Shown here in pieces: positions 1,178 through 64,000 of a DNA stretch of 64,000 bases (positions are counted from its first letter, which is position 1; the number at the start of each line of letters is the position of its first letter). The notes under the pieces were generated by a model, which was not told where the DNA came from, did no database searches, and worked only from the letters and a program-made list of their open reading frames with translations. Position numbers and translations under genes: made by a program. Location of the stretch: contig CM060981.1 of the NCBI GenBank assembly GCA_030765065.1, forward strand, positions 226,865,152-226,929,151. The letters run 5' to 3'. The DNA is from Deroplatys truncata. Its lineage: Eukaryota; Arthropoda; Insecta; Mantodea; Mantidae.

Positions 1178-1791
1178 ACTTTCTCTACTACATATAGTAA
1201 GTAGGGGAAGTATTGTATTCCACCCAAAAATTCGATACCGAGATTTCACGGGAAATATACATTTTGAGACCCCCTGAATCCAAAAAAAGCATTTTTGGAA
1301 ACATGTCCGTCTGTGTGTCTTTGAACAGCATAACTCAGAAACGAACAGTCGGATAAACACCAAACTTGGTATTTAGGTTCAGTATCTTCCAGAGATGCGA
1401 CATGAAAGATTTCAAGAAAATCCCCACCCTAGATTACCCTTTACATGGAACATTTTTCGAAAATTTTAGTTTTCTCAAAAATGGCTCTAACGATTTTGAT
1501 TAAAATATCATATGTTTAAGATATTTTCATGACAAATAAAATGTATATCTTGAATTTTCTGGGAATGTCTCCAAAAATATTCTTCATTGTGAACGACTTT
1601 TGCAAACTAGTAAACCATAAGAGATAGACAAAATTTTACTACACAAAAAATGTAGATCGCGTTAAAATAAACAATCTATGTCATATACATTTTTGTTGTT
1701 GAGTGAACCATTTTCGAGATATTGCTTGTTATTCCCTTAAACTTTCCAATACTTATACTTTTTCTCAAATGGGAATTCGTTATTCATTTTT
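1178..1791 (+). repeat. Family A copy 1, 3'-truncated
   Basis: Starts ACTTTCTCTACTACATATAG and follows the family for about 610 bases. It stops after ...CGTTATTCATTTTT, where copy 2 begins. Copy 3 (2636) is cut at the same internal point. This suggests the pair partial+full was duplicated as a unit. Confidence 0.9.
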
Positions 1792-2633
1792 ACTTTCTCT
1801 ACTACGTATAGTAAGTAGGGGAAGTATTGCATTCCACCCAAAAATTCGATACCGAGATTTCACCGGAAATATATGTTTTGAGATCTCCTGAATCCAAAAA
1901 AAGCATTTTTGGAAACATGTCCGTGTGTGTGTGTGTGTGTGTGTGTCTGTGAACAGAATAACTCAAAAACGAACAGTCGGACCTTGTTATTTAGGTTCAG
2001 TATCTTCCAGAGATGCGACACGAAGGTTTTCAAGAAAATCCCCCCACTCCAGACTACCCTTTACATGGAAAATTTTTCGAAAATCTTAATTTTCTCAAAA
2101 ATGGCTCTAACGATTTTGATGAAAATATCATATGTTTAAGATAATGTCATGAGAAATGAAATGTATATCTCGAATTTTCTGGGAATGTCTCCAAAAGTAT
2201 TCTTCATTGTGAACGCCTTTTGCATAACTGGTAAACCATAAGAGATAGACAAAATTTTACTACACAAAAATGTAGATCAAGTTAAAATACACAACTTATG
2301 TCATATACATTTCTTTTGTTGAGTGAACCTTTTCGAGATATTGCTTGTTATTTCCTTAAATTTTCCGATACTTATACTTTTTCTCAAATACGTTATTCAT
2401 TTTTTTATGTCCTGACATGCAAAGAGAATGGAATGCGCCACATAGCAACCAGCGTTAAAATATTTGACTATCGCTTAAAAGCTACCATATTCCCCTTGCA
2501 TCTACAAGAAAATTACCAATAAGATTGACATCTCGATATCTCGATTAACATGAAGCATATGGAGAATAGGCGTTTGTAAAATTAGATTGTACAAGAGTAG
2601 AGAAAGTCATGTGAGTGTAACACATCAGATTTT
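1792..2633 (+). mobile_element. Family A copy 2, full length (reference copy)
   Basis: This copy shows all family landmarks. The 5' terminus is ACTTTCTCTACTACG, which contains TCTCTACTA. A variable (GT)n tract is at 1922-1945. Conserved AT-rich blocks follow. The subterminal inverted match AGTAGAGAAAGT is at 2596-2607. A small hairpin follows, stem ATGTG (2609-2613) and CACAT (2621-2625) with a 7-base loop. The end is CAGAT then Ts. Length is about 842 bases. No ORF is credible. The architecture (asymmetric inverted repeat, 3' hairpin, T-rich insertion sites, no clear target duplication) resembles non-autonomous Helentron/DINE-1 rolling-circle elements. That class assignment is inference. Confidence 0.85.
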
Positions 2634-2635
2634 TT

Positions 2636-3167
2636 ACTTTCTCTACTACGTATAGTAAGTAGGGGAAGTATTGTATTCCACCCAAAATTTCGATACCGAG
2701 ATTTCACCGGAAATACATGTTTTGAGACTCACTGAATCTAAATAAAGCATTTTTGGAAACATGTCCGTGTGTGTGTCTGTGTGTCTGTGAACATCATAAC
2801 TCAAAAACGAAGAGTCGGATAAACACCAAACTTGGTATTTAGGTTCAGTATTTTCCAGAGATGCGACACGAAGGTTTTCAAGAAAATCCCCCCACCCCAG
2901 ACTACCCTTTACATGGAACATTTTTCAAAAATTTTAATTTTCTCAAACACGGCTCTAACGATTTTAATTAAAGTATCATATGTTTAGGACAATGTCATGA
3001 GAAATGAAATGTATATTTTACTACACGAAAAATGTAGATCGCGTTAAAATGCACAATTTATGTCATATACATTTCTTTTGTTGAGTGAACCGTTTGCGAG
3101 ATATTGCTTGTTATTCCCTTAAATTTTCCAATACTTATACATTTTCTCAAATCCGTTATTCATTTTT
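2636..3167 (+). repeat. Family A copy 3, 3'-truncated with internal deletion
   Basis: Begins directly after the 3' T-run of copy 2, head-to-tail. It lacks the block corresponding to about 2160-2260 of copy 2; the jump is visible at 3010-3020. It stops at the same internal point as copy 1, where copy 4 begins. Confidence 0.88.
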
Positions 3168-4030
3168 ACTTTCTCTACTACGTATAGTAAGTAGGGGAAG
3201 TATTGCATTCCACCCAAAAATTCGATACCGAGATTTCACCGGAAATACATGTTTTGAGACCTCCTGAATCCAAAAAAGCATTTTTGGAAACATGTCCGTG
3301 TGTGTCTGTCTGTGTGTCTGTGTGTCTGTGTGTCTGTGAACAGCATAACTCAAAAACGAACAGTCGGATAAGCACCAAACTTGGTATTTAGGTTCAGTAT
3401 CTTCCAGAGATGCGACACGAAGGTTTTCAAGAAAATCCCCCCACCCCAGACTACCCTTTACATGGAAGATTTTTCGAAAATTTTAATTTTCTCAAAAATG
3501 GCTCTAACGATTTTGATGAAAATATCATATGTTTAGGACAATGTCATGAGAAATGAAATGTATATCTCGAATTTTCTGGGAATGTCTCCAAACGTATTCT
3601 TCATTGTGAACGACTTTTGCATAACTGGTAAACCATAAGAGATAGACAAAATTTTACTACACAAAAAATGTAGATCGCGTTAAAATACACAACTTATGTC
3701 ATATACATTTCTTTTGTTGAGTGAACCGTTTTCGAGATATTGCTTGTTATTTCCTTAAATTTTTCAATACTTTTTCCCAAAATCGTTATTCATTTTTTTA
3801 TGTCCTGGACATGCAAAGAGAATGGAATGCGCCACATAGCAACCAGCGTTAAAATATTTGACTATCGCTTAAAAGCTACCATATTTCCCTTGCATCTACA
3901 AGAAAATTACCAATAAGATTGACATCTCGATATCTCGATTAACATGAAGCATATGGAGAATAGGCGTTTGTAAAAATAGATTGTACAAGAGTAGAGAAAG
4001 TCAGGTGAGTGTAACACATCAGATTTTTTA
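3168..4030 (+). mobile_element. Family A copy 4, full length
   Basis: Complete from ACTTTCTCTACTACG to AACACATCAGATTTTTT. It carries a longer GT/CT-rich tract (3296-3340) than copy 2. The 3' hairpin stem has one change (AGGTG). It is followed immediately by an extra palindromic 3' segment. Confidence 0.9.
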
Positions 4031-4345
4031 TCTTGGATATGCAAAGAGAATGGTGCTGCACCTAGCAACCAGCTATTAAGAGATATGTCTATGCTTAAAG
4101 GCTACTGTATTTCTATGTTGCCCTTGCAATTACAAAACAAGGGGAACATAGTCCGCCTTAAGCGATAGTCAAATATTTTTAGAACTGGTCGCTATGTGTA
4201 AAATGTAATTTCTCTTTGCATGGCAAAAGATCGTTTCTGCAAATGTTTATCTCGATTAATATGAAATGGATGGACAATAAGAGTTTGTAAAAATAGTTTG
4301 TACAAGAGTAGAGAAAGTCATGCGAGTGTAACACATCAGATTTTT
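4031..4345 (+). repeat. Extra palindromic 3' segment of family A
   Basis: A second family A 3' end, with GAGTAGAGAAAGT at about 4308 and AACACATCAGATTTTT at the end. It begins with an imperfect palindrome at about 4030-4215. The left arm (TGCAAAGAGAATGG...CTTAAAGGCTACTG...TTGCCCTTG) is met by its inverse (CAAGGGGAACATAG...CTTAAGCGATAG...CTCTTTGCATGG). The same module occurs at 54990 and 63665, and in part at 27785. Confidence 0.8.
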
Positions 4346-8596: not shown

Positions 8597-8600
8597 AAAA

Positions 8601-9469
8601 ATCTGATGTGTTACACTCACATGACTTTCTCTACTCTTGTACAATCTATTTTTACAAACGCCTATTCTCCATATGCTTCATATTAATCGAGATATCGAGA
8701 TGTCCATCTTATTTGTAATTTTCTTGTAAATGCAAGGGGAATATGGTAGCTTTTAAGCGATAGTCAAATATTTTATCGCTGGTTGCTATGTGGCGCATTC
8801 CATTCTCTTTGCATGTCCAGGACATAAAAAATGAATAACGAATTTGAGAAAAAGTATAAGTATTGGAAAATTTAAGGAAATAACAAGCAATATCTCGAAA
8901 ACGGTTCACTCAACAAAAAAAATGTATATGATATAAGTTGTGTATTTTAACGCGATCTACATTTTTTGTGTAGTAAAATTTTGTCTATCTCTTATGGTTT
9001 ACCAGTTATGCAAAAGTCGTTCATAATGAAGAATACTTTTGTAGACATTCCAAGAAATTTCGAGATATACATTTCATTTCACATAACATTATCTTAAACA
9101 TATGATATTTTCATCAAAATCGTTAGAGCCATTTTTGAGAAAATTAAAATTTTCGAAAAATGTTCCATGTAAAGGGTAGTCTGGGGTGGGGGGATTTTCT
9201 TGAAAATCTTCGTGTCGCATCTCTGGAAGATACTGAACGTAAATACCAAGTTTGGTGTTTATCCGACTGTTAGTTTTTGAGTTATGCTGTTCACAGACAC
9301 ACACACAGACACACACACACACACACAGACACACACACGGACATGTTTCCAAAAATGCTTTTTTTGGATTCAGGAGGTCTCAAAACATGTATTTCCGATG
9401 AAATCTCGGTATCGAATTTTTGGGTGGAATGCAATACTTCCCCTACTTACTATACGTAGTAGAGAAAGT
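8601..9469 (-). mobile_element. Family A, full length, reverse orientation
   Basis: Both termini are intact. The 3' end hairpin (ATCTGATGTG...CTCACATGAC on the + strand) is at 8601-8623 and GTAGAGAAAGT closes at 9469. The dinucleotide tract has expanded to interrupted (AC)n at 9296-9338. Flanking bases are A-rich on both sides as read here, consistent with T-rich targets. Confidence 0.9.
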
Positions 9470-10656
9470 AAAAATGGTTTAGAAAAATAAAGCAATATGA
9501 ATTTGTTATGACCCATCATGCATAAATAACCACGGTGTTAAAATGTGTGATGGACTAAAGAAAGAAAAAAAATAGCAACTCGAAGTAATGTATTAAAAAT
9601 TTTAAGAATTTTGTATATCATTATGGAAATAAATACACACACATACGCACGCACGCACACAAAACTACGCATACATGTTCGTCACCTGCGGGCTGGTTTC
9701 GTTTATTCCCTCGTGGCAAATTTGTGGGATGTAATGTCTGTCTTCTGAAGGCTCTGCATTAGCTTTTTCGGCCCCTTTTACACTCTCTGCCACCTACTTG
9801 TTGTAAATACTTGTTGTAAATAGGGAAGGAGGTGGAGTTGGTGTTAGAATAAAATGGAGGATGCGAGGGAAGTGAAATGTTGTAGGGTAAAGTGAGTAGA
9901 TATTTAGTGACAGAAGAAAGAAGTTTTTGTGTTTGGTTAAAAGAGGTAAAGGTTTAATATACAATGATAAAATTTAAAACATTGATATAAAAAAATTAAA
10001 AGGGATATAATAGAAAATTTATATTGTGATTAAATACAATGTTATAAGGTAGATAAATAAACAAATAAACACAATTGTACAAATATAGATATAAAGGAAT
10101 TAAATAAGATATTGAATTATTATAAATTAAATAATTACTATGAGAATAATGGAATATTATAAATAGATAACTTTAACTTTATAAAACATTTTAATTAAGG
10201 AAAATTTTAAATAAAATTTACATAAACTTATTAAAATGATTAGTAGTTTAGTAGAAGGTTTTGTTGCTGGCTGCCAGCACATTTTCGCTGGTTTCCAGTG
10301 AATATGGTTACATAGGAGTAGATAGTAGCTGGTTATCAGTTGCTAAGTTTGCTGCTTTCCAGCAAGTGTACATAGATATAGAATTTAGAACTGTAATTAA
10401 TTTTTGTTTTTACGCCTTTACTCTAATCCAATAATTTCTATTTTTCTCTCTTTCTTTTATCTAGTTTTTTAGTATTTATTATTATATTATTATTTTGTAG
10501 ACATTGTGCAATTGTAGTTATTTTATCTGAAGAAATTTGATGTAATCTAAAATGTAAATGTGTTGTGAGAATAAATGAAAAGTTTTAATGTATGTCCCGG
10601 TGTAGTAACCGAGGTGCCGGGATAGTATATTCAGATTTTATTTATTTATTTTATTG
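9470..10656. other. No recognised gene; AT-rich with a CA-rich patch
   Basis: A CA/CG alternating patch lies at 9633-9662. At 10255-10375 related words (GCTGGCTGCCAGCA, GCTGGTTTCCAG, GCTTTCCAGC) recur. No ORF is convincing. Confidence 0.35.
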
Positions 10657-11350
10657 CAAATAGGGAAAGTATTGCATTCCACCCAAAAATTCAATGTCAG
10701 TATTAGCCAGAAATGTATGTTTAGAGACCTCCTGAACCCAAAGAGAGCATTTTATAAAAAGGTATAATCTTTAGTTCAAACTGAAGTGTCCGTTTAATAT
10801 CTGTATTAGTCGTTAATTTATCCTGTGGCTTCGGACCTCCACAGCTTCGGTCTGTGTTGAACAGTATAATTCAAAAACGAAATGCCCGATAAGTATCAAA
10901 CTCGGTATTTAGGTTCTAACAATTTTTATTAAAATGCTAAATATTTAAAGCACATTAAATGACAAATAAAATGTGTAAGTTGTATTCTCTGGGAAAACCT
11001 GCAATAAAGTCATCTTCATTCGGGAAGAATTTTATATAACTTTGTAAAACGGGTCAACCATAAAATACAGAAAAAAAACTTAATGCAAAAAAAAATCCCA
11101 TATAATTGGTTTGAATTTTTTAGTAATTTGCTCATTTTAAAAAATCATCCGCTATGCAGTTGCTTCTTGTGATGTCATGGAAAGAGTGTGGAATCTCATG
11201 GCTAGCTTATAGAGACACATGACTGTCGATTCTGCTTTCTGTATCCCCCTTGTATCTACAACGAAATTTGTAATGAAACTATTTCTGCAAAGACTTATTT
11301 CTATCAATATGAAGTAGGAAGAAAAGTAAGCTTTCATAGGAACAGTTTGT
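10657..11350 (+). repeat. Family A, old divergent copy, both ends lost
   Basis: Internal family A blocks are recognisable (GTATTGCATTCCACCCAAAA, CAAAAACG, ACTCGGTATTTAGGTT, TCTGGGAAAA). The 5' ACTTTCTCTACT is missing and the 3' end is cut before the hairpin, next to the MITE at 11361. About 100 foreign bases interrupt it near 10760-10860. Confidence 0.75.
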
Positions 11351-11360
11351 AGTAGCTATA

Positions 11361-11702
11361 CAGGGTGGACCATTTAAGTTAAGATTGTAAAATATCTCCA
11401 AAACTAAGCGCTGTAGAAAGAAATGTCTTGAATAAAAGTGGCTAGAAATTATGGGGGGAAAATAAATGTCATTAGTCGTGCTTTATTTGGAGGACGTTGT
11501 GATCGTTTTAGGGTCAATTAGGTTCTCATTTAAAAGAATTAAATTGACCCTAAAGTAATTATCATAACGTCCTCCAAACAAAACACGACTAATGGCATTT
11601 ACTTTCCCCCATAATATCAAGCAAATTTTATCAAAGACATTTCTTTCTACAACGCAGAGTTTTGGAGGCACTGTACAGTCTCAACTTAAATGGTCCACCC
11701 TG
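11361..11702. mobile_element. Foldback MITE (family B), Tc1/mariner type
   Basis: The termini CAGGGTGGACCATTTAAG and CTTAAATGGTCCACCCTG are flanked by TA at 11359-11360 and 11703-11704. Almost the whole 342-base element is one inverted repeat; the two arms meet near 11535 around TTAAATTGACCC / GGGTCAATT. It has no coding capacity. Confidence 0.9.
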
Positions 11703-15246: not shown

Positions 15247-16100
15247 ACTTTCTCTGCTATTTACGCATAGAAGGTAAGAGAAAGTATTGTATTTCACCCA
15301 AAAACTCCATGTCGAAATTTCATCTGAAACACATGATTTGATGCAAAACAAAAACAACAAAATTAGAAAAAAAAGTCCGTATTTTTGTCTCTGTTATCTG
15401 TGTGTATGTCTGTGAACAGCATAACTCAAAAACGAAAAGTGGGATAAGCACCAAACTTGGTATTTAAGATCAGAATTCTCAAAAGAGAATTTCAAGAAAA
15501 TCTTCTACCCCAAACTACCCTTTATATGGAAGACTTTTCGAAATGTTCCATTTTATAAAAACTGGCTCTAACGATTTTCACTATACTGCCATATATTAAA
15601 TATACTTTCATGACAAATAAAATGCATATCTTGTATTTTCATAAATAGCCTGTGAAGCACTCTTCATTAAAAGGAAATCCTGTATAATTTTGTGTAACAG
15701 ACAAAAACGTACTACACAAAAATGTAGATCTCTTTAAATCACACAATTTATATGAACGTTTTTATGGCTTCAACCTTTCCAAGATATACGTTGAAACTGG
15801 TTCGAATGTTCAGTACTTTGTCATTTTAAGTGCTGTCGCTTTTCAGTTGTTTCTCGCGATATTTTGGAAAGAGTATTTAGTTATTCGGTTTTTAAATATT
15901 TGACTATTGATTCGGTTTCGTGTATCTTTCTTGTACCTTCAACGAATTGTGTAATGAATATATTTCTGCAAAGGTTTATCTCAGTTTAGTGAAGTCGGTA
16001 AAAAATAAAAAAAAAGACTTTGGGAAGAATAGTCCATATAATCCATATAAAATAAACGATACTAGTAGGTAGAGGGCGTTATGTGAATGTAACATATATT
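15247..16100 (+). mobile_element. Family A, divergent full-length copy
   Basis: Begins ACTTTCTCTGCTATTTACG and ends with the hairpin variant ATGTGAATGTAACATAT at about 16081. An extra 3' segment follows. The order of internal blocks is conserved despite many substitutions, so this is an old copy. Confidence 0.85.
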
Positions 16101-16374
16101 TTAAAGTGCTGTCGCTATTCAATTGTTTCTCCTGAAGACATGGGAAGAGTATGAAATTTCAAGACCAGGACATAGTCACCAGTTTTAAAACATTTTACTA
16201 ACGCGTCTGCTATACCACTTTGGCCTACAACAAAATGTGTAATAAAACCATTTTTGCAAACGTTTGTCTCACATAGTAGATAGAAAAATAAAAATGTTAT
16301 AAGAATTGATTGTAGAAGAGATATACAATACGCGATAATGGGTAGTGAAAGTAATGTGAACATAACACATCAAA
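16101..16374 (+). repeat. Extra family A 3' segment
   Basis: Repeats the last third of the family (CTGTCGCTATTCAATTGTTT...GTAGTGAAAGTAATGTG...CACATCAAATTG) directly after a complete copy. This gives a second 3' hairpin, GTGAACATAACAC. Confidence 0.8.
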
Positions 16375-16379: not shown

Positions 16380-17058
16380 ACTTTCTCTACCACGTATAAA
16401 TTTTTGGGTGCATTCCACCCAAAAATTCGATACCGCGATTTCACCGGAAACACACGTTTCGAGGCCTCTGAATAAAAAACAAACATTTTTGGAAAAAGGT
16501 CCATATGTGTGTGTCTGTCTGAACAGCATAATTCAAGAACGAAAAGTCAGATACCAAACTTATTATTTAAGTTCAGTATCTTCCAAAGATGTGACACGAA
16601 AATGTTCAAGAAAATACCCTCACCCAAACTACCCTTTACATGGAACATCTTTTATTTTTTTTTTCAAAATGTTTGACATTTTCAAAAATGGCTTTAACGA
16701 TTTTGATTAAAATCATGACAAATAAAATGTACCTATACTTGAGTTTTCTACGAATAACCTGTGAAGTACTTTTCATTAGGAAGGAATTTTGTATAATCTT
16801 ATATAATTTATATACGTATATTAAGTGATAGACGAAAATGAACTACACAAAAAAGTGCAGATCTCTTTAAAACACACTTTATTTCAAATAACTTTTTTGA
16901 GACATCAGATATGTCCGAGATTCCATTATTAATGGTTTGAATTGTTCAATAATTTGTCATTGTTTTAAAATCCTGTCAATATGCAGCTGTTTCTCGCAAT
17001 GTCGTGGAAAGAGTATGGAATTTTAAGACCAGCGTAAAGCGTCCAGTTCTTAAACATT
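16380..17058 (+). repeat. Family A, 3'-truncated copy
   Basis: Starts ACTTTCTCTACCACG six bases after the preceding hairpin, continuing a head-to-tail series. It has a local duplication of the CATTCCACCCAAAAATT block near 16400 and loses the 3' end at about 17058 where the Jockey element begins. Confidence 0.82.
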
Positions 17059-17079
17059 TGGAGACAATTGACGATTTGT

Positions 17080-22867: not shown

Positions 22868-23112
22868 AAAATATGTGTTGCATTCACATGGCTTTCTCTA
22901 CTCTTCAAACCATCTTAAAAATGCTTATTCTTCTATCTACTTCTTCTTATTTGAGATAACCTTTCCTTACTCATATCTCGTACATGCGTTGTAGGCAATA
23001 TCATGTTGGTAAGAAAGCATATAGTAACTAAAACGATAATTAGATTTTGAAAAAAAAAGTTCGTTATGTGATGGCTTTGAAACTCCATTCTACTTCCAAG
23101 ACCGCGAGAAAA
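22868..23112 (-). repeat. Extra family A 3' segment, reverse orientation
   Basis: Repeats a family A 3' end (ATATGTGTTGCATTCACATG; CTTTCTCTACTCTTC) immediately beyond a complete copy. It is the same duplication seen at 4031, 16101 and 28056. Confidence 0.8.
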
Positions 23113-23787
23113 ACATCTGATTTGTTGCACTCACATGACTTTCTCTACTCTTGTACAAATTATTTTTACAAACGCCTATTCTCCATCTACTTCGTGTTAA
23201 TCGAGATAAACAATTGGAAAATTCAAACAAATAACAAGGAACATCTTGGAAATGGATCACTCGACAAAAAAATGTATATGGCATAAATTGCCTGTTTTAA
23301 CGAGATCTACATTTTTATGCAGTAAAATTTTGTATATCTCTAATGGTTTGCCATTTATGCGAAAGTCATTTAGAATGAAAAGGACTTTTGGGGGACATTT
23401 CCAGAAAATTCAAGATATACGTTTCATTTACCATAAAAATATTATAAACATATAATGTTTTAATCAAAATCGTTAGAGCCATTTTTAAGAAAATAAAAAT
23501 GCTCGAAACATGTTGCACGTAAAGGGTAGTTTGGGGTGGGGGATTTTCTTGAAAATTTAAACTCAAATACAAAATTTTGGTGTTCATCCGACTTTTCCTT
23601 TTTTAGTTATGTGTTCACAGACAGACACACAGACTGACAATGACAGACACATACACGGGCATGTTTCCAAAAATGCTATATTTGGATTCAAGACACCTCA
23701 AAACATGTATTTCCGGTGAAATCCCGTTGTCGAATTTTTGGGTGGAATGCAATACTTCCCCTACTTACTATACGTAGTAGAGAAAGT
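23113..23787 (-). mobile_element. Family A copy, reverse orientation
   Basis: Both ends are present: CATCTGATTTGTTGCACTC at the left and GTAGTAGAGAAAGT at the right. The hairpin stem is imperfect here (ATGTG/CAAAT). It is shorter than the reference because part of the 3' third is missing. Confidence 0.88.
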
Positions 23788-23809
23788 AAGAACGAATACC
23801 GGCTTAGCG

Positions 23810-24211
23810 CTTGAATAAAGTTTAAGTATTTCAAAATTCAAACGAATAATAAAAAATACCTCGGAAATCCTGAAGCCACAAAGAAGTATCAGTTATAAAT
23901 TGTGAGCTTTAACGAGATCTGCATTTTTTGTAGATTTTGTCTATCTCTTATGGTTTACCAATTATACGTATGCGATCCAGAATGAAGAGGACTTCACAGG
24001 CTATTCGCAGAAAATTGCAGATATACATTGTATTTGTCATTTAAATATCTTAAAGCTGTGGTGTTTTAATCAAAATAGTCAGTCATTTTTTGAAAAATAA
24101 ATAATAACAAACAGTTTTCCATATAAAGAGTAGTTTAGGGGATTTCCTTAAAAATCTTCCTATCGCATTTTGGAAGCCAATGTACTTAAATACCTAGTGT
24201 GGTATTTAAGT

Positions 24212-24274
<63 letters not shown>

Positions 24275-24393
24275 CACAAGGAATCTTTTCTAAAACTGAC
24301 TTTTTTGTTGGATTCAGGAAGTCTCAAAACGTGTATTTCGATAACATCTTGGTATCGAATTTTTACTGCTTGCTATAGGTAAATAGTATTCTA
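23810..24393 (-). repeat. Family A, divergent 3'-truncated copy with expanded (AC)n
   Basis: The 5' two thirds of the family in reverse. The usual short dinucleotide tract has become an uninterrupted (AC)n of about 58 bases at 24213-24270. The terminus is degraded (TTGCTATAGGTAAATAGTAT). Confidence 0.8.
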
Positions 24394-26487: not shown

Positions 26488-26569
26488 TATTTTTTAATAT
26501 TTAATTCACTTTCACGCTGTATTAAAATTACTATAGCTAATTTTCATGGTTTTTAGTATCTTTAGTTTT

Positions 26570-27165: not shown

Positions 27166-27177
27166 CTTAGTTTTTTA

Positions 27178-40310: not shown

Positions 40311-41665
40311 AAACCTGATGTACTGCATTCACATGACCGAGAAGGATGGGTCAGGCGGTTACGTCTGTGGCCCGCATTCGGGAGGTCCCGGGATCAATCC
40401 CCGGTGACCGCGCACTCTGGTCCATGGGTTTTTCGCGATTTCTCAGGGTCGCCAGGCGAATACTGGGGTGGTTCATCTTCTATCACGATTCTCTTTCCTC
40501 TCATTTCCTGTACCCATCATCTTCCTTTTCATCTGTTTCAGGGCTACAGGACCAGGCGACCACTCAGGTCTCTCCTCAGCGTGGGATTCCGCTCCAGGGG
40601 ACCCTGGAGGTTGGTGGCTTGTGGGCAGGGACCGTGCGGCGCCGGATGCGTTCTATCTGGAAACGTTAGGGATCCCGTCCAAGCTTGCGCCTGTCGCCAT
40701 CCGCATCTGGTCGCCCTTCTCTCGCTCTCTCCCCTCATTCTCCCTCCCAGGGGTCACGTTGAAAGCACAATGGGCCGACTGGTCTGCGTGCGGTGCTCCG
40801 TGATACGTACCTTTACCTTTACTGCATTCACATGACTTTTCTACTCACCTTTCTTCAAAGTATTCATACAAAAGCTTATTCTTCTATCAACATCTTTTTA
40901 ATCGAGATAAACTTCCGTCATACATTTATACATTTCGTTGTATGTATAAGATGGATAGAGTAAGCTAAAGAAGCGGATGGCTATATGAGAGCTTTAAAAT
41001 TCCATGCTCTTTGCATGACCAAGAGAAACAACGAACACTAATTTACCACTTGAAATAGTATAAGTAATTGAAAATTAAAACTATCAAACTATATCTATAT
41101 CTCCGAAATGGTTAAACCCTCCCTCCTCCAAAATAAATCTATGCTTTGACGAGCTTTAGCTTTTAGATAGAAATATTTTGTCTTTCTCCTACGGTATACC
41201 AATTATACAAAAGTCATTCAAAATGAATAAGAGTTCACAAGCAATTACCAGAAAATTCAACACAAACATTTTATATGTCACACAGATGTGGAACATAAGG
41301 TATTTTAATCAAAATCATTAGAGAAAATTTGAGAAAATTAAAAATAAGGAAAGCATTTCCATGTAATGGGTAGTTTGGAATGGGGGAATTCTCTTAAAAC
41401 CTGCTTGTCCTATTCTTGAAGGATGCTGAACTTAAATACGCAATTCGAAATTTAACTGGATTTTCGTTTTTGAGTTATATTGTTCACAGACTGGCAGATA
41501 CATCCATACACACATAGAGCTTTGTCTAAGAGGAATATCAATAAGCATCAGAAATACCTTTTTGGATTCAAGGAGCCCCAGAACGTGTATTTCCGGTGTA
41601 ATCTCGGTATCGAATAGAATGTAATACCTTCTCTATAATTGCTATAGGTAATATTAGGAGAATTA
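40311..41665 (-). repeat. Family A copy, reverse, interrupted by a SINE
   Basis: The 3' hairpin end is at 40311-40337 (CTGATGTACTGCATTCACATG) and the copy resumes after the SINE at 40820. The 5' end is degraded near 41665 (TTAGGAGAATTAAAA). The next copy follows at 41668 in the same orientation. Confidence 0.85.
40338..40819 (+). mobile_element. tRNA-derived SINE, complete, with 17-bp target duplication
   Basis: TACTGCATTCACATGAC stands on both sides (40321-40337 and 40820-40836) with no mismatch. Head GGATGGGTCAGGCGGTTACG (A box), B-box-like GGGATCAATCCCC at 40391, SINE middle, GC-rich body and a 3' end with the short tandem tail ACCTTTACCTT. 482 bases. The perfect duplication suggests one of the younger insertions here. 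The 195-codon frame spanning it is an artefact. Confidence 0.93.
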
Positions 41666-41667: not shown

Positions 41668-43002
41668 AATCTAATGTGTTACATTCACATAACTTTCTTT
41701 AACCACTTCCTTTATTTTTATATAGGTATATCAAATTAATCATATGAAAGCTTACTTTTCTACCTACTTCATGTTCATAGAAACAAACCTTTGCAGAAAT
41801 AACTTATGATACATTTCGTTGTAGGTACAAGGGAGATTTAGAAAGTAGATTTGATGATCATATTATGTCGCTATATGCAGGCCTTGAAATTTCATACTGT
41901 TTCTAAGACATCGCGAGAAACAGTTGAGTAGCGGCAGCACTTTAAAAATGGCAAAAGTACTGAAAAAATCCCGAATATGGCGGATGTCTTTTAAAGAGAT
42001 CTACTTTTTTGTGTAGGAAGTTTTTGTGTGGCCTGAATTTCCGGATTCGATTCCCGGCGACCGACCACTCTGATCTATGTTTTTTTTAAGTTTTCCCGGG
42101 TCGTCAGGCGAGTGCTGGAGTGGTTTCTTTCATCTCCCGAATTTCCTGCCCCTCCATTTCGTTCCATTAATCATTTCATTCATCCTTCACCCCGTTTGGT
42201 CTGTTTCACGGTTGGAAGTGTCGGCGATGGTGTTTCGGTGCAGGTGACGGGGAAAAAGGATGCTCTCTGTGAAACTTTTCCGCCCATCGGCTTTCGGATG
42301 GTTGCCGCGGTATAAGTACTGCCCCTCGGGGCGTTGGACCCTGTATGGGACAAGGGTCCGGTCTGCCTGTCCGACCGTCGAGGCATCAATCTCGAAACTT
42401 TAGGGACCTGTTATTGTTGTGCCGTCACTCCTGGTTTCGGCCGCCCGGTGTCTCCTTTCACCTACCTCATCCCTCCCATTGTGGAGCGTCGGCACAATAT
42501 CCTCATTCTTGAATCAGTCCCGAATTCACAATCCAATCCAATGTTATGGTTGACCGGCTATACGAAATCAAAAAAAAATTCCTCCTGAAAGAAGATGACT
42601 TTACAAGTTGTTCCTAGAAAATTCGAGATATAACTTTCATTTGTCATGCAAGTGTGTTAAACATACGCTCTTTTAATCAAAATCGTTAGAACCATTTTTG
42701 GGAAGAAAATACAAACCGATTTCCATGTAAAGGGTAGTTTGGAGTGGGTGAATTTTCTTAAAAATCTTCGTATCGGACTCTTGGACTCTCAATTTGGTGT
42801 TTAACTGACTTTTCGTTTTTAGTTATGCTGTTCACAGACACACATAGAGACAGATAGACACACATACCGTTCTTTTTCAAAAAATGCTCTTTTTTGTATT
42901 CATGGAGATTCAAAACGTGTATTTCTGGTGGAAGTATAGAATTTTTACTTAGAATGCAATACGTCCGCTTCTTAATGTAGGAAAGCAGTAGCGAAAAGAA
43001 AC
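41668..43002 (-). repeat. Family A copy, reverse, interrupted by a truncated SINE
   Basis: The 3' end AATCTAATGTGTTACATTC is at 41668. The copy breaks at about 42030 (AAGTTTTTGT) and resumes at about 42542 (TTATGGTTGACCGG). It runs to the 5' end near 43002 (GCAGTAGCGAAAAG), where the 140-bp tandem array begins. Confidence 0.82.
42031..42541 (+). repeat. SINE, 5'-truncated, inside family A
   Basis: Starts within the tRNA head just before the B box (GGATTCGATTCCCGGCGACC). Then the SINE middle (CACTCTGATCTATG, GGTCGTCAGGCGAGTGCTGG), a GC-rich body and a CAATCCAATCCAAT tail. The A box is missing. Confidence 0.8.
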
Positions 43003-43975
43003 ACATACACACACACACACACATAAATACGGACCTTTTTTTTCTAAAAATGCTTTTTATTTGTTCAAGGAGCCTCAAAACATGTATTTCCTGTGAGATC
43101 TCGGTATAGAGTTTTTGTGTGTAATGCAATATTTCGTTTATAAGCACACACACTTGCAAGCGCCTTCTTCTAAGTGCTTTTTATATTTTCAGAGGGCCTC
43201 AAAACATGCATTTCCTGTGAGATCTCGGGTGGAATACAATGCTTCCTCTGCTTAATATAGGCAAGTAGTAGTGAAAGTAAACACATACACACACACACCC
43301 GCACAGTTGCACACACTTTTTTTCTAGGTGTTCTTTTTATATTTCAGAGGGCCTCAAAACGTACATTACCTGTGAGATTTCGGATGGAATGCAATACTTC
43401 CCCTACTTACTATAGGCAAGCAGTGGTGAAAGAATAACACATACACAGTTCCACGCATCTTTCTTCTAACTTTTTTTAATATTTTCAGAGGGCCGCGAAA
43501 CGTGCATTTCCTGTGAAATCTCGAATGGAATGCAATACTTCCTCTACTTAATACAGGCAAGTAGTACTGAAAGTAAACACTCACACAGTTGCACAGACCT
43601 TTTTTCTAAATGTTTTTTATATTTTCAGAGGGTCTTAAAACGTGCATTTCCTGTGAAATCTCGGGTGGAATGGAATACGCCTTCTACTTACTGTAGAAAA
43701 GTAGTAGTCAAAGTAAACACAAACACAGTTTCACATACCTTTTTTATAGCTGCCTTTACATTTTCAGAGGACCTCAAAACATGCATTTCTTGTGAGATCT
43801 CTGGTGGAATGCAATACTTCCTCTGCTTAATATAGGCGAGTAAGAGTGGAAGTAAACACACACACACATTTGCACACACCTTTTGTCTAAGTGATTTTCT
43901 TTATTTTCAGAGGACCTCAAAACATGCATTTCCTGTGAGATCTCGGGGTGGAATGCAATACTTCCCCTCATGTCT
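42999..43975. repeat. Tandem array of the family A 5' end (about 140-bp unit, about 7 copies)
   Basis: Unit starts at about 42999, 43145, 43281, 43436, 43576, 43713 and 43854. Each unit has AAACACACAC..., CTTTTTTCTAAGTG, TATTTTCAGAGGGCCTCAAA, CATTTCCTGTGAGATCTCGG, GGAATGCAATACTTCC and TAGGCAAGTAGTAGTGAAAG. That is the terminal part of a reversed family A copy. Neighbouring units differ by several substitutions. The array ends about 290 bases before the TATA box of the cuticle gene. Confidence 0.9.
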
Positions 43976-45090: not shown

Positions 45091-45916
45091 ACTTTCTCTA
45101 TCACGCACATAGCAGGTAAGGAAGGTATTGTATTCCACCAGAAATTCGGTACCGAGATTTCACCGGAAATACATAACTTTGAGCTTAACTCAAAAACGGA
45201 AAATTGGATAAATACTAAACTTGGTATTTAGGTTCAATATCTTACAAAGGTGTGACAGGAAGTTTTTCAAGAAAATCTCCCCACCCCAGACTACATTTAA
45301 CATGGAAGTTTCTCGAAATTTTTGATTTTCTAAAAAATGGCTCTAACGATTTTGATGGAAATACCACTATTAAAATATTTATGTGAAAAATAAAATGTAT
45401 ATCCCCAATTTTCCTGAAATAGTTGTGAAGTCTACTTCACTTTGAAGAAATTTTGTATAATCTGGTACAGCTGTTAAACGTTACGATATAAATCAAGACA
45501 TATTACACAAAACATTTATAGCGTTTAAAACACACAATTTATTTTAAATAACATTTTTGTGGCATCAGCCATTTCCGAGATATCCGTTATTAATTGTTCG
45601 ATTTGTTCAATACTTTGTCATTCTCTTTAAGTCCCATCGATTTTCAGTCTGTTTCTCACGATTGCATGGAAAGAGTATGGAATTTTAAGGCCAGTATATA
45701 GCAACCAGTTCTTAAACATTTGACTATCGCGGTTCCCTTTGTATCTATAACTAAATGTGTAATGACGCTATTTCTGAAAAGGTTTATTTGGAAGTAAAAT
45801 AGATAGTAAAATATAAGTGAAATAGATAGAAATATAAGACTTAGTAGGAATAATTTTTATATCCATCTAATAAACAAAGAGGATAGAGAATGTTATGTGA
45901 ATCTAACACATCAGAA
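45091..45916 (+). mobile_element. Family A, divergent full-length copy
   Basis: ACTTTCTCTATCACGCACATAG at the 5' end; GATAGAGAATGTTATGTG and ATCTAACACATCAGAATT at the 3' end. The segment with the GT tract is deleted near 45180. Confidence 0.85.
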
Positions 45917-46072: not shown

Positions 46073-46079
46073 CTAGCTA

Positions 46080-46930
46080 CGTTCACACGACTTTCTCTAC
46101 CCACTATCCATTATATTTATGTAGCATCCCCAAACTGTTCTTTTAAGATTATTTTTTATCTACATTATGTTAATCAAGGCAAACACTTGCATAAATAATT
46201 TCATTACACATACTGTTATAGTAGAAAATGGGTACAGGGAACAGAAGCGATAGTCATATGTTTAAAAGCGGATCGCTCACTATAACGGGCCTTGAAATTC
46301 CATACTGCTTCCAAGACATTACTGGAAATAACTGAATGTGACAGCACTTCAAAAATTATAATATTGAAAAAATCAAACCAATAACAATAGATTCCTTGGA
46401 AATGACATGCTACAAAAATATGTATCTAAAACAATTTGTGAGTTTTAAAGGGATCTACATTTTTTATAAAGGGACTTTTTAATATATCTTTTAATGTTTA
46501 CCAGTTATACAAAATTGTATGAAATTCCTTCCCATTGAAGAGCACTTCCGTGCTATTCCCAGAAAATTCAAGATACCTGTACATTTTATTTGCCATGTAA
46601 ATTCTTAAACACATGCATTGTACTCAAAATCGTTAGCCATAAAATAAAAAGTAATGAAACATTTTACGTGTAAAGGTTAGATTGGGGGAGAGTTGAATGT
46701 CTTTGGGTTGCATCTTTGGAAGATATTGAACTTAAATACAAGTTCGGTATTTATGCGAGAATTCGTTTTTGAGTTGTGCTGTTCACAGACACACACAAAA
46801 CCTTTTTCTAAGAATGCCTTTTCTGGATTCAGGAGTTTGAAAACATGTATTTCCGTTGATATCTCGACATTGCATTTTTGGGTGGAATGCAATACCTCCT
46901 TTACCTGCTTAACTACGAGGCAGAGAAAAT
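46080..46930 (-). mobile_element. Family A, reverse orientation
   Basis: 3' end CTACGTTCACACGACTTTC at the left and GAGGCAGAGAAAAT at the right. It faces the preceding + strand fragment, giving an inverted arrangement. Confidence 0.85.
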
Positions 46931-48029: not shown

Positions 48030-48876
48030 ATCTTGTGTTACATTCACACGACTATCTCTTACCATCTATCGTTTATTAGTAGGTATACAAATCATTTTTA
48101 CGAAAGCTTATTTTTCTATCTACTTCCTTTTAATTGAGATAAACCTTTGCAGAAATAGCTACATTAAACATTTAGTTATAGTACAAAGATATAACGATAG
48201 TCAAATGTTTAAGAACTGGACGCTGTAACTTACCTTAAAGTTTCATATTGTTTCCATGTAATCGCGAAAAACAACTGAATGTCGCTAGGAATTAAAAGAA
48301 TAACAAAGTATTGACAAATTCGAACCATTAATAACGGATATCTCGGAAATGGCGTTTGCCACAAAAAATTATTTGAATAAATTGTATGTTTTAAAGAGAT
48401 CTACATTTTTCTGTAGAACGTTTTCGTTTATCGCTCAGAGTTTACCCGTTATACAAGATTGTATAAAATTCCTTCCGAATGAAGACTCATGCACTATTCC
48501 CAGAAAATTCAAGATACAAGTTTTACCTGTAATGTAAATATCTTTAATGCATGATATTTTAATAAAAATCTCTAGAGCATTATTGCGAAAATAAAAAAAA
48601 TCGAAAATGTCCCATGTAAAGGGTAGTTGAGGGTAAGGCTTTTGTTCAAAATCTTGGAAGGCACTGAACGTAAGTGGCACGTTTGGTATTATCCAACCTT
48701 TCGTTTTTGAGTTATGCTGTTTAAAGACACGCACACACGTGGACATTTTTCTAAAATGCTTTTCTTTTCGGATTCAGCGGGCCTCAAAATATGCATTTCC
48801 GTTGAAATCTTCGTATGGAATTTTTGGGTGGAATGTAATACCTTCTCTATCTACCCTCCTACGTGGTAGAGAAAGT
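48030..48876 (-). mobile_element. Family A, full length, reverse orientation
   Basis: Left end AATCTTGTGTTACATTCACACG, right end GTGGTAGAGAAAGT. The GT tract is very short here (CACGCACACACG). Confidence 0.87.
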
Positions 48877-51169: not shown

Positions 51170-52130
51170 ATGTTGCTCGTATTTTTGTGCTTTTTCTCCA
51201 CCACATACCTAGTAACGGAGGCAGTATTAATTCCTGCCCATTAATTATATATGGACATTTCACCGAAAATACATGTTTTGAGGTCACTAGAAGAGTCCGT
51301 CTGTGTGAACAGCATAATGCCAAAACTAAATGCCGGATATATGCGTCCTTGATATTCCAGTCTTTCCATGACATTTGAATGGAGAAAGCACTTCCAATAG
51401 GAACAAAGTATGGAAAAGTTCAAATCATTTACAACGGACATCTCGGAAGTGGCTGATGCCACAAACAAAGTTACTTGAAATAAATTGGTGCTTCCTAAAG
51501 AGATCTGCATTTTTATGTAGTAATTTTTGTCTATCTCTTATGGTTTACCAGTTATACAGACTTATGCAAAATGCATCATGAATGAAGAGGATTTTTCAAA
51601 CTAATCGCAGAAAATTTAAAAAAAAAGTTCATTTCGTATGTAAATATTTTAACCGTGTGGTGTTTTAATAAAAATCGTTAATGCGGTTTTTGAGAAAATA
51701 AAAATAACGATAAAATCTCTGTGTAAGTGGTAGTTTGGGGAGGAAGAATTTTCTTCAAAATCTTCGTGTTGCATCCTTTTAAGATAGTAAGCTTAAATAC
51801 CAAGTTTGCCATTTATCTGACATTTCACTTTTTAATTATGCTCTTCACACACAGGCATACGCACATACACACGATCCTTTTCTGAAAATTCTTTTTGTTT
51901 TTGGATTCAGTGGATCCAAAGTATTAAACGACGCTAATGTAACATATCCTTGTTAAAAAATATATGTGTTTATGTGGGTGAGGGAGAGTATTAAAAGCGA
52001 AAAGCCAGATAAATATGAAAATTGGTATTTAAGTTCACCATCTTCAAGGGACGTGACATGAAGATTTTCAAGAAATTTTGTCTATCTAGGAAACCACAAA
52101 AAATAGACAAATATTTATTTTAGAAAAAAA
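51170..52130. repeat. Rearranged family A fragments in opposite orientations
   Basis: A + strand 5' fragment (51180-51345: CTTTTTCTCCACCACATACC, AAATACATGTTTTGAGGTCA, GAACAGCATAATGCC) joins a - strand fragment at about 51350 that runs to about 51920. A further + strand piece (AGCGAAAAGCCAGATAAATA) occupies 51990-52100. Confidence 0.7.

Positions 52131-52714: not shown

Positions 52715-52775
<61 letters not shown>
52715..52775. repeat. (AAT)n microsatellite
   Basis: About 20 uninterrupted AAT units within the intron. Confidence 0.96.
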
Positions 52776-54390: not shown

Positions 54391-55322
54391 ACTTTCTCTA
54401 CTACGTATAGTAAGTAGGGGAAATATTGTATTCCATCCAAAAATTCGATACCGAGATTTCACCGGAAATATATGTTTTGAGATCCCCTTAATCCAGAAAA
54501 AGCATTTTTGGAAACATGTCCGTGTCTGTGTGTGTGTGTGAACAGCATAACTCAGAAACGAACAGTCGGATAAACACCAAACTTGGTATTTAGGTTCAGT
54601 ATCTTCCAGAGATGCGACACGTAGGTTTTCAAGAAAATCCCCCCATCCCTTTACATGGAATAATTTTAATTTTCTCAAAAATGGCTCTAACGATTTTGAT
54701 TAAAACATCACATGTTTACGATATTTTCATGGCAAATAAAATGTATATCTTGAATTTTCTGGGAATGTCTCCAAAAGTATTCTTCATTATGAACGACTTT
54801 TGCATAACTGGTAAACCATAAGAGATAGACAAAATTTTACTACACAAAAAATGTAGATCGCGTTAAAATGCCCAATTTATGTCATATACATTTTTTTTGT
54901 TGAGTGAACCATTTTGGAGATATTGCTTATTCCCTTAAAATTTTCAATACTTAATACAATTCTCAATAGGGAATTCGTTATTCATTTTTTTGTCTTGGAT
55001 ATGCAAAGAGTATTAATCTGTGGCAAAGAGAATGGTTCTGCACCTAGCAACCAGCTATTAAGAGATATGTCTATGCTTAAAGGCTACTGTATTTCTATAT
55101 TGCCCTTGCAAATACACAAAAAGGGGAACATAGTACGCCTTAAGCGATAGTCAAATATTTTTAGAACTGGTCGCTATGTGTAAAATGTAATTCGCTTTGC
55201 ATGTCAAAAGATCGTTTCTGGAAATGTTTATCTCGATTAATATGAAATAGATGGAGAATAAGAGTTTGTAAAAATAGTTTGTACAAGAGTAGAGAAAGTC
55301 ATGTGAGTGTAACACATCAGAT
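54391..55322 (+). mobile_element. Family A, full length, palindromic long variant
   Basis: Intact 5' end ACTTTCTCTACTACG and 3' end CATGTGAGTGTAACACATCAG. The palindrome module is at about 54998-55210. A deletion removes part of the CCCCACCCCAGACTACCC block near 54640. About 932 bases. Confidence 0.9.
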
Positions 55323-58039: not shown

Positions 58040-58236
58040 TTGGATGTCCGTTTCTTAAACATTTGACTGTCGCTGTTCTCTTGGTATCGATAACGAAATG
58101 TGTATTGTAACAATTTCTGCATAGGTTGATTTGGATTAAAGTGAAATAGATAGAAACACAAGTTTTAGTAAGAATATTTGTATACCCACTAACAAAGACA
58201 GAGGGTAGAGAAAGTCATGTGAACGTATCACATCAG
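58040..58236 (+). repeat. Family A 3' end fragment near the splice acceptor
   Basis: AAACATTTGACTGTCGCTGT, GGGTAGAGAAAGTCATGTG, AACGTATCACATCAG: the last 200 bases of the family with an intact hairpin (loop AACGTAT). It ends about 115 bases before the exon 2 acceptor. Confidence 0.85.
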
Positions 58237-58351
58237 TTTCTTTCTTTCTTTTGGTTCAATAAGGTTGGTGCAAGCATTAGTTGCTGTACAATCTAGGAGT
58301 TATGCTGGAACATTTTATGCTGTATCTGAAATAAGAGTTATTGTTTTTCAG

Positions 58352-61935: not shown

Positions 61936-62384
61936 TCGATCTAAGGCTTATCCACTAACAGCTATGACCATGTAGTTAAAGCGACTAAAAGAAGTAGAGT
62001 AATAATAATGAAATGGTAGTAGGTAATTAAGACGCTCGTATGAAAATTATGAAACTCGCGTCTTCATTACTACCGTTATAGTCTTGTTGCATAATATACT
62101 GTTATATATTAGGTTTTTTGGGGTAATTTTCGTAACAAAAGTTAATGGTACTAAGCGTTCAATTACAGCCAATGATAGTACACTGCTTTGGCGCCCAGTT
62201 GGGTAAGCGTGGAAAGAATAAATTGAAATGCTTAGTGTTGAAGAAAGTGCTTCTAATAACTAATGCCGGGAAATTCTAAAAGGCTATTTGGATAGGATTG
62301 TGTTATAACATTATGTAGCAATGAACGGGATAACAAGATATGTTTCAATATGAAATACCTTCATTGAGATGTGAGGAATTTACC

Positions 62385-62866
62385 GCAGAGGGACACCTCG
62401 CTACTGCGACCTAATAGGTCTATTGTGACTACAGCCCCCTCCCCCGAGAGGCACGGATGAGGTGAAGGAGGTTGCAGGTTCGCAGGCAGACGGGATTACA
62501 GAGACGCACGGAAGTCCCTATCATTTCCAGTAAGAAGCACCCGCACTCGGCCAGTAGACGCGGAGTCCCGCAAGAGGGGGACAAAGCGGCCCTTGCAGGC
62601 AGGCAAACGCGCTCTGTCGTTGCCACGAAGAAATCTTTCCAAAGCGCAGCGACCATGCACTCTGCCTATCAGAGATACTACGGAATCCGGAGACGTGCCT
62701 GAAAGGGAGAAAGATGAAATGACAGGAAATGAGGGAAAGGAGAAATCGTGGTAGAATACACCACACCAGCATTCCCTAGACGACCAGAGGAAAACCATGA
62801 AAAAAAATGATCAGAGGGTAGCCACCGGTAATCGAACCCGGGACCTTACGAATACGGCTCGGTAAA
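62385..62866 (-). mobile_element. tRNA-derived SINE, reverse orientation
   Basis: On the minus strand: head GAGCCGTATTCGTAAGG (partial), B box GGGTTCGATTACC near 62835, SINE middle (GGGAATGCTGGTGTGGTG), and a GC-rich body to about 62385. The A box region is largely lost. Confidence 0.78.
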
Positions 62867-63018
62867 TACCTTTATTATAACTGATAAAGTTGGTACTTGA
62901 CTTGTAACCTAATTGATATTTACATCAGTTTCAGAAATCTAACGAATGCTGTTACCTTAAAAACCCCGTTGAAAAAAGACAAGTTTCTGTCGACTTTTTC
63001 TACCTACTGTCATTCATT

Positions 63019-63785
63019 ACTTCCTCTACTACGTATAGTAAGTAGGGGAATTATTGTATTCCACTCAAAAATTCGATACCGAGATTTCACCGGAAATATG
63101 TGTTTTGAGACCTCCTGAATAAAAAAAAAAAAGCATTTTTGGAAACATGTCCGCGTGTGTGTCTGTCTGTGTATGTGTCTGTCTATCTGTGAACAACATA
63201 ACTCAGAAACGAACAGTCGTATAAACACCAAACTTGGTATTTAGGTTCAGTATCTTCAAGAGATGCGACACGAAGGTTTTCAAGAAAATTCCCCCACCCC
63301 AGGTTACCCTTTATATGGAACATTTTTCGTAAATTTTAATTTTCTCAAAAATGGCTCTAACGATTTTGATTAAAATATCATAAGTTTAAGACATTTTTAA
63401 TGCAAATGAATTGTATGTCTCGAATTTTCTGGGAATGTCTCCAAAATCATTCATTGTGAAGGACTATTGCATAACTGGTAAACCATAAGAGATAAACAAA
63501 ACATTACTACCCAAAAAATGTAGATCCCGTTAAAATACACAATTTATGTCATACACATTTGTTTTGTTGAATGAACCATTTTCGAGATATTGCTTGTTAT
63601 TCCCTTAAATTTTCCAATACTTATACTTTTTCTCAAATGGGAATTCGTTATTCATTTTTTTTCTTGAATATGCAAAGAGTATTAATCTGTGGGAAAGGGA
63701 ATGGTGCTGCACCTAGCAACCAACTATTAAGAGATATGTCTATGCTTAAAGGCTACTGTATTTCTATATTGCCCTTGCAAATACA
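63019..63785 (+). repeat. Family A, long variant, left half of an inverted pair
   Basis: Starts ACTTCCTCTACTACG and reaches the palindrome centre near 63785 (TTGCAAATACAAAACAAGGGG). It contains a 12-base A run near 63120. Confidence 0.88.
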
Positions 63786-64000
63786 AAACAAGGGGAATAT
63801 AGTAGGCTTTAAGCGATAGTCAAATATTTTAGAACTGGTCGCTATGTGTAAAATGTAATTCTCTTTGCATGTCAAGAACATAAAAAAAGAACAACGAATT
63901 CTCAGTTGAGAAAAAGTATAAGTATTGGAAAATTCAAAGAAATAACAAGGAATATCTCGAAAATGGTTCACTTTACAAAAAAAAAATGTTAATGACATAT
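63786..64000 (-). repeat. Family A, right half of the inverted pair, cut by the window end
   Basis: From the palindrome centre the sequence runs on as a reversed family A copy (CTCTTTGCATGTCAAGAACA, GAAAAAGTATAAGTATTGG, AATATCTCGAAAATGGTTC). It leaves the window still in register. This inverted dimer shows how the palindromic module could have arisen. Confidence 0.88.

Follow-up and report, generated by a model that had tools for sequence, protein, structure and literature searches.

Family A copies in the window

We analyse here a stretch of 64,000 nt of the genome of the mantis Deroplatys truncata (assembly GCA_030765065.1, contig CM060981.1, positions 226,865,152 to 226,929,151), hereafter called the window, and the repeat family that dominates it, family A, the partner of which was sought in the whole 4.29-Gb host assembly. 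In a preliminary description, made from the letters of the window, family A was taken to be an undescribed non-autonomous rolling-circle element of the Helentron/HINE type, with at least 20 copies sharing one word at the exact 5' end and the first copy beginning at 1178. Allowing at most one mismatch, the word, ACTTTCTCTACT, occurs at 27 places on the two strands of the window (17 exact, ten with one mismatch), compared with 0.55 expected and a maximum of three in 100 dinucleotide shuffles of the window, the 27 places including 5' ends and, on the other strand, the inverted copies of the 3' ends. BLAST and profile searches place the start of the elements exactly at ACTTTCTCTACT, and with the copies listed by head profile, 22 head regions could be aligned, in agreement with the number of copies claimed; the head of copy A begins at 1178, as had been said. 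Ten heads are young (A to J), with 88-95% identity to the consensus, and twelve are old, with 62-81%, the very 5' end being absent from the old heads o24 and o51. In the tree of 20 of the 22 heads (o10 and o51 left out) the young set is separate, with support 100/99. The seven complete young copies are 673-932 bp long, and, taken together, the family A models account for 20,261 bp (31.7%) of the window.

The young copies lie partly within one another. The head of copy A (1178..1791, +) is broken off at its internal T-run, where the complete copy B (1792..2630, +) is inserted; then come copy C (2636..3167, +), a head only, with an internal deletion, which begins five Ts past the CAGAT of B, the complete copy D (3168..4024, +), inserted at the T-run of C, and the tail of copy A (4025..4341, +), which is of the same subfamily (95.7% to E). 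Copy J (23115..23787, -) is nested at the T-run of the old copy o24 (22868..24364, -; head 23788-24364, tail 22868-23114). Copies H (8601..9469, -), G (25666..26490, +), F (27177..28058, +) and E (54391..55322, +) are complete, F being followed by a tail of another subfamily (28059..28276, +) that starts exactly at the internal T-run, and part of the tail of E being inverted relative to copies B, D and H. The last copy, I (63019..64000, +), continues past the window end, by which it is cut, with an inverted family A segment after it; this stretch holds a 113-nt inverted repeat.

The old copies are spread over the window. One degraded copy (10637..11361, +) has no clear 5' end; o15 (15247..16097, +) is nested within the T-rich block of another old copy, the tail of which follows (16099..16374, +); and o16 (16380..17070, +) begins directly after a 3' end. 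Further copies are o29 (28596..29378, -), o35 (34690..35318, -; head), o45 (45091..45916, +), o46 (46076..46930, -) and o48 (48034..48876, -), together with old fragments in both orientations (51193..52083) and an old tail fragment with the 3' repeat and hairpin (58048..58238, +). The copy o41 (40823..41661, -) stands directly after the 3' end of o43 (41669..42998, -), and o43 contains at 42010-42540 an unrelated, GC-richer looking insert of about 500 bp, perhaps a short interspersed element, in which one stretch presumably resembles a tRNA B-box. The copy o43 is preceded by a tandem array (43008..43972, -) of units of about 140 bp, each with the greater part of the element's first ~150 bases, where the units span the old family A sequence from the 5' hairpin to the GT tract. 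The array resembles the short multiple 5' termini of Fusarium Helitrons (PMC5148889).

The scan of the window for RepHel covered 135 of its 177 stop-to-stop frames of at least 70 aa and found none at E 0.05; a single weak match to Exo_endo_phos (E 0.048) appeared among the frames. The frame running through the element gave no protein match at E 0.001, Rfam (gathering threshold) and tRNA scans of the window gave no matches, and there were 0 matches to the patterns of the family A 3' end and block A in the viral contig collection and to the pattern of the 3' end in the genome contig collection. In the literature the 12-mer ACTTTCTCTACT turned up in four papers, unrelated by title, no comparison with Repbase or Dfam being included.

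The order of the parts is as follows. After the T-run of the flank come ACTTTCTCTACT, ten bases, and AGTAGGGGAAGT, an imperfect complement of ACTTTCTCTACT, so that the 5' end can form a hairpin. Downstream of it lies block A, with a GT/GTCY microsatellite, and about 600 bases from the 5' end a T-rich block, the end of which is TTATTCATTTTTTT, the internal T-run. After the T-rich block there is a tail of 220-320 bases, then AGTAGAGAAAGT, the exact complement of the 5' word, a hairpin ATGTG-AGTGTAA-CACAT, CAGAT and a T-run. The inverted match that had been placed about 25 bases inside the 3' end is found 23 bases before the CAGAT end in all seven complete young copies; the small hairpin is present, and the young 3' ends are CAGAT in seven of nine, CAGAG in one and AATAT in one. 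An internal variable dinucleotide tract and tandem copies, also claimed before, are both present. The two subterminal inverted repeats (subTIRs) are identical at 12 of 12 positions in six of the seven complete young copies and at 11 of 12 in one, and at 7-11 of 12 in the old copies (n=7). In the complete young copies, Tandem Repeats Finder detects microsatellites and no other arrays. The word TCTCTACTA, which had been read as the canonical Helitron start, is indeed present in the 5' end, but it lies at bases 5-13 of the element and not at the terminus, and thus offers no argument for a canonical Helitron start.

For the 5' hairpin, 23 of 26 ends of old and young copies were used, among them four array units, while a further unit, o10 and o41 were excluded; 85.6% of the cells are paired, as high a value being reached by 0 of 500 shuffles, while slid alignments give 45-60%. 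For the 3' hairpin, with a stem of 5 bp, 88.9% of the cells are paired over 21 ends. It is noted that relatedness of the sequences inflates pairing scores of this kind. Single-strand folding of three 5' ends has z values of -2.35, -2.36 and -1.84, and that of three 3' ends +0.81, -1.97 and -1.33.

The RepHel partner and the class of family A

The host genome contains at least 152 scored matches to PF14214, of at least two kinds. Among the eight best-scoring ones (L001-L008), seven have internal stops and seven the canonical motif GLPHAH, the eighth locus having no match to the motif pattern; at none of these eight canonical Helitron loci was ACTTTCTCTACT found with at most one mismatch, although the loci, of ~3.5 kb, may not reach the ends of the elements. 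To the second kind belong, among others, 18 listed matches whose open frames are 2,108-2,543 aa long, and for ten of them, with frames of 2,324-2,543 aa, 20 kb around each was fetched. All ten have the family A 5' end upstream, and downstream the 3' end TGTAGAGAAAGTTATGTGAATGTAACACATCAGA followed by Ts. The RepHel-encoding element sharing both termini, which the preliminary description had proposed to look for, is thus present in the host genome. The distance from end to end is 9.8-10.6 kb at nine loci, while at the tenth, C8, it is 11.0 kb (3752 to 14736) because a 0.95-kb HINE sits inside. Between HINE copy E and the autonomous copy C9, the first ~850 bases are 88.6% identical and the last 34 bases 94%.

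The frame of C9 (2,324 aa) contains Herpes_teg_N (PF04843, residues 67-212), which we take to be a domain of the cysteine-protease type, DUF6570, Helitron_like_N (959-1150), PIF1 (1614-1836) and Pif1_2B. As in C9, a protease-type domain within one protein occurs in several RepHel relatives among those listed, and protease-type domains are also known from the extra OTU frame in Helentrons (PMC4067079). When the last 267 residues of C9 are taken alone, Exo_endo_phos_2 (PF14529), the family named for the endonuclease of a mite Helentron (PMC4067079), gives 27.8 bits against a cut-off of 27.4 in this one copy tested, the endonuclease not being listed in the whole-protein scan at E 0.01. Rep motif 2 is VEFQMRGSPHEH (GSPHEH) in all ten frames, one frame having L for F further on, and the S in this motif is described as a mark of Helentrons (PMC4067079). 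The frame also has YGLATYIIKY, a possible two-tyrosine motif, and Helraiser (7lcc) matches the protein across the helicase. The best 120 of 339 relatives, which include those from insects, molluscs and rotifers, are 39-61% identical over residues 950-1450. One relative, P0219, is a Helentron-type RepHel on a metagenome-assembled genome labelled Pseudomonadota, which is probably eukaryotic contamination. No second frame of at least 150 aa was found on the Rep strand from the RepHel frame to the 3' end, replication protein A not having been searched for by profile. About 2.8-3.7 kb from the autonomous 5' end (e.g. L029), self-matches offset by 63 bp lie inside the RepHel frame, corresponding to 21-aa repeats; since their number varies among the copies, several of the frames differ in length by multiples of 21 aa.

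Over the last 1,660 codons of eight of the ten copies (C4b and C5b were left out because their frame ends differ), the ratio of nonsynonymous to synonymous differences per site (pN/pS) is 0.06-1.01 in 28 pairs, with a median of 0.285, mostly below 0.4 and below 0.52 in 27 pairs, where the differences per pair are few and the pairs are not independent; there are no stops. C9 and its nearest copy share 99.5% identity over 9.8 kb. From these sequences the autonomous Helentron is likely to have been active recently.

The junctions of family A are T-rich, as was claimed: at least four Ts precede 12 of the 17 5' ends tested (array units, o10, o41, o43 and o51 left out), against a background of 1.65% of positions, the ends not being all independent, since nested copies share sites. 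The comparison of empty and filled sites, also proposed earlier, is provided by the autonomous copies. In C8 a HINE lies within the autonomous element at GGCTACTGTA-T-run-CTATATTG, with T6 on the left and CAGA-T7 on the right, and in seven other autonomous copies the empty site is CTGTA-T8-CTATATTG, so that the net change is only about five extra Ts. Internal T-runs have 6-9 Ts when intact, with a mean of 7.65 (n=23); filled runs have a mean of 4.65 Ts on the left (n=17, among which several go back to one common junction) and of 6.5 on the right side (n=8). Tandem 3'-to-5' junctions have 5-8 Ts, with a mean of 5.67 (n=9). At two insertions with the left flank TTATT, the right flanks are T8AAATAG (C10b) and T7CTAT (the outer copy at C5b), and a duplication of three or more bases is therefore impossible at these two sites. 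For flank words other than oligo-T in eight copies with family-free flanks, the shared mean is 4.75 bases versus 4.04 for mismatched pairings, the observed mean being reached by 12.6% of 2,137 such pairings, which argues for no constant duplication. The earlier claim that no duplication is obvious holds in that no constant TA, 8-bp or other non-T duplication was seen, but two copies do have matching flanks. The extra Ts fit best with Ts carried by the element, by analogy with the Helentrons of Culex, for which the variable Ts are said to belong to the element (PMC4067079).

Because RepHel elements with both family A ends are found in the host genome, we regard the class as settled: with high confidence, family A is a non-autonomous Helentron (HINE, DINE-1-like), driven by the autonomous Helentron of 9.8-10.6 kb in the same genome that shares its termini, as had been proposed. 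Its two subTIRs, one at the 5' end and the other shortly before the 3' end, have the at least 11 identical base pairs by which HINEs and Helentrons are recognised. It has the 3' palindrome and an autonomous partner, in which the Rep has a GSPHxH motif with S and an apurinic (AP)-type endonuclease is fused to the C-terminus of RepHel; Helitron2, by contrast, has a RepHel without endonuclease, where it should be noted that the endonuclease match here is just above the cut-off. In the case of a miniature inverted-repeat transposable element (MITE) moved by a cut-and-paste DDE transposase, the short length, high copy number and subterminal inverted repeats of family A, the piggyBac and mariner fragments in the window and the two copies with matching flanks that are not pure T could be understood, and such elements were first filed as MITEs (PMC4067079). 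Yet both ends are shared with a RepHel element at ten of ten loci, the flank words and the non-matching right flanks described above speak against a constant non-T duplication, and no DDE element with these ends was seen; the MITE reading is rejected on the partner and on the duplication, and we consider it extremely improbable. A derivative of a canonical Helitron (Helitron1), which would share the rolling-circle type, the 3' hairpin and TCTCTACTA near the 5' end, is also very improbable and is rejected as well. Canonical Helitrons begin with TC, end with CTRR, insert between A and T and have GLPHxH, whereas here the ends are ACTT...CAGAT, the sites are T-runs, the subterminal repeats are inverted and the Rep has GSPHEH, GLPHAH occurring at other loci, which, in the ~3.5 kb covered, are without ACTTTCTCTACT. 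The young copies have no CTRR directly after the hairpin, where CAGAT or a variant stands, in accord with what had been noted before.

Several points weigh against the Helentron assignment or parts of it. Neither a circle nor a transposition event was observed, the evidence being that of sequence. Four pairs of the 5' hairpin have both partners altered, but at least as many are found in 36 of 500 shuffles. The 3' hairpin has a short stem of 5 bp without any such double change, and all 500 of its 500 shuffles pair equally well; in copy D it folds no better than shuffles (z +0.81). Copy F plus the tail after it resembles a duplication, with AGTTTTTT on both sides, as does the copy at 15717 of C8, with TTTTATT on both sides, and a T-only duplication at T-run sites (+3 to +5 Ts) is possible. 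The 3' repeat of the autonomous element is 11/12 identical to that of the HINEs and the sequence just upstream differs, so that the HINEs may be driven by the sampled subfamily or by a sister subfamily.

The Helentron assignment also agrees with the known systems. Like family A, the HINEs and Helentrons of PMC4067079 (2014) have subterminal inverted repeats of 12-15 bp, 5' and 3' palindromes, T-rich insertion with variable Ts and an autonomous RepHel-endonuclease partner with S in motif 2; they are described as having no target site duplication, and in family A no constant one was seen. Unlike them, family A has a new terminal sequence and most of its sampled autonomous copies are chimeric. 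With DINE-1 of Drosophila (PMC2374699, 2008) it shares the partial inverted repeat beside the 5' subTIR, the GTCY-rich block A microsatellite, the 3' stem-loop past the 3' subTIR and the WTTTT target, while its subTIR sequence differs and its young copies contain microsatellites and no other arrays. With Cg_HINE of Crassostrea gigas (PMC7492417, 2020) it shares the subTIR, the adjacent inverted repeat, the 3' palindrome and the GTCY-type microsatellite, present in several Cg_HINE elements; the satellite-like arrays there lie between two modules, whereas the family A array repeats the 5' end itself.

Self-nesting at the internal T-run and chimeric copies

In the window, copies B and D start at the identical internal T-run of A and C and copy J at that of o24; o15 lies in the corresponding T-rich block of a further old copy, and the tail that follows F begins at that point. 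By the subfamily marks GGGAATTCG before the T-run and TCTTGG after it, the head of A pairs with the tail at 4025-4341, and B, the head of C and D therefore lie inside A. Around the ten autonomous loci the ends come in the orders 5 5 3 3 and 5 5 5 3 3 3. Taking these loci and the window together, the nested heads are mostly 614-680 bases and the tails 218-317, most being ~230 or 279; the spacing from 5' end to 5' end is 520-740 in 17 of 19 successive pairs, that from 3' end to 3' end 210-330 in 14 of 20, and that from 3' end to 5' end at most 12 in 10 of 24 steps. Among 55 young 5' ends, 19 come after an internal T-run (at least seven of them being one shared junction), 11 after a 3' end, two elsewhere in a HINE and 23 in other DNA (one without flank). 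The junction of a head with a 5' end, TTATTCATTT N{0,8} ACTTTCTCTACTACG, has 19,415 exact matches in the host genome, against 0 for the reversed control, and exactly five Ts in 84 of 100 listed junctions. This genome count takes the place of a statistical argument for a hot spot of nesting made on the window only, which rested on five nested cases and was dropped because, of the four or five T-runs that a copy has on the same strand, one to three lie in or near the block.

In seven of the ten autonomous copies the 45 bases before the 5' end have at most one difference and are the last bases of a HINE head. Chimeras with a HINE head as 5' end thus make up at least seven of the ten, and the main autonomous lineage sampled is such a chimera. 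C8 has a like arrangement, with 5' ends at 3088 and 3752 (as judged from the arrangement of the ends), C5b has a different head junction and C10b stands alone. On the 3' side the ten copies, read by eye, are followed by a HINE tail in five cases, by HINE block A in one (C13) and by other DNA in four. From the shared junction, the unit of HINE head and autonomous element appears to move as a whole, starting with the outer 5' end and finishing with the inner 3' end. Copy C plus copy D, with a head and no tail, fits this outer-5'-to-inner-3' rule, and in Fusarium transposition between the outer 5' and the first 3' end has been proposed (PMC5148889). Copy F plus its tail would be a read-through beyond the first 3' end, by analogy with Helraiser, for which such read-through was shown (PMC4778049). 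The composite FoHeli of Fusarium (PMC5148889, 2016) shares the proposed self-insertion, multiple 5' termini and one 3' terminus; its duplicated 5' part is typically shorter than 200 bp, in a number of cases, and it is of the Helitron2 type, unlike family A, with heads of ~640 bp, one internal site, 19,415 junctions and the Helentron type.

A possible explanation, though somewhat less probable than not, is that the internal T-run TTATTCATTTTTTT is a built-in docking site, by which insertions would be mostly recycled into the family's own copies and end-swapping among nested copies would continually make new mobile units, the currently successful autonomous Helentron being one of them, its 5' end having come from a HINE head. 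The count of 19,415 may include copies of chimeras and not only independent insertions. That the head/5'-end junctions arose by unequal crossing over, slippage or the amplification of a small number of old chimeras rather than by preferred insertion into the internal T-run is a possible though doubtful explanation, consistent with the junction common to seven autonomous copies by descent, with the stacked heads (15 adjacent spacings of 608-671 among the 100 listed junctions) and with the junctions on 100% identical inverted arms at one locus. On the other hand, the balanced nests with matching tails (5 5 3 3, 5 5 5 3 3 3) at several loci, the inner and outer copies from different subfamilies, the cases from the old wave and the separate junction at C5b argue against this explanation.

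The locus with the inverted arms, L034 (G000:C1:22027400-22033930), has two arms of 1,193 bp, 100% identical and both with nested family A heads, which run to the ends of the fetched stretch; at least two more mirrored pairs occur among the junctions listed. The arms may represent a large inverted duplication, a mobile element or an assembly artefact.

Neighbouring sequences, possible mechanism and significance

Besides family A, three frames of the window match DDE_Tnp_1_7 (piggyBac type) and one HTH_48 (Mos1 type), placed by reading of the translations at 31843-33271 and 25024-25446. Long trinucleotide repeats (ATA, ATT, TAG, CTT, TAA), 90-100% pure, lie at 38770-39631 and 52714-52775, one of them translating as threonine/asparagine runs. 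A Cuticle_3 gene lies at 58223-58999, its best named relatives being in Diploptera, Periplaneta, a damselfly, Timema and Blattella, which by itself would point to a cockroach or another polyneopteran as the likely host.

Based on the above, we propose the following pathway. The HUH Rep would nick after the T-run at the 5' end, the helicase would displace the strand as far as a 3' hairpin, and the ends would join through about five Ts, giving the circle junction CAGA-TTTTT-ACTTTC. The circle would then integrate into another T-run, leaving its own four or five Ts. With each copy offering a favoured landing place in its internal T-run of 6-9, about 600 bases in, the copies would nest, and a Rep that began at the outer 5' end but finished at the inner 3' end would give a mobile chimera with two 5' ends. 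The tandem 3'-T5-5' junctions, we infer, are the expected product of such a circle or of a concatemer.

What is new here is the large-scale self-nesting at one site and the chimeric autonomous lineage. An abundant anonymous insect repeat is now tied to an apparently intact driver. In the literature cited here mobilisation by a Helentron rests on sequence inference, and with the driver found it can be tested on natural copies that are nearly identical. Nests and chimeras preserve the start and stop points of transposition, against which the outer-5'-to-first-3' model from Fusarium can be tested. Finally, we note that a self-docking site, if real, would offer a simple way for a dispersed element to turn into tandem, satellite-like arrays, while it would insert less often at other places in the host genome.

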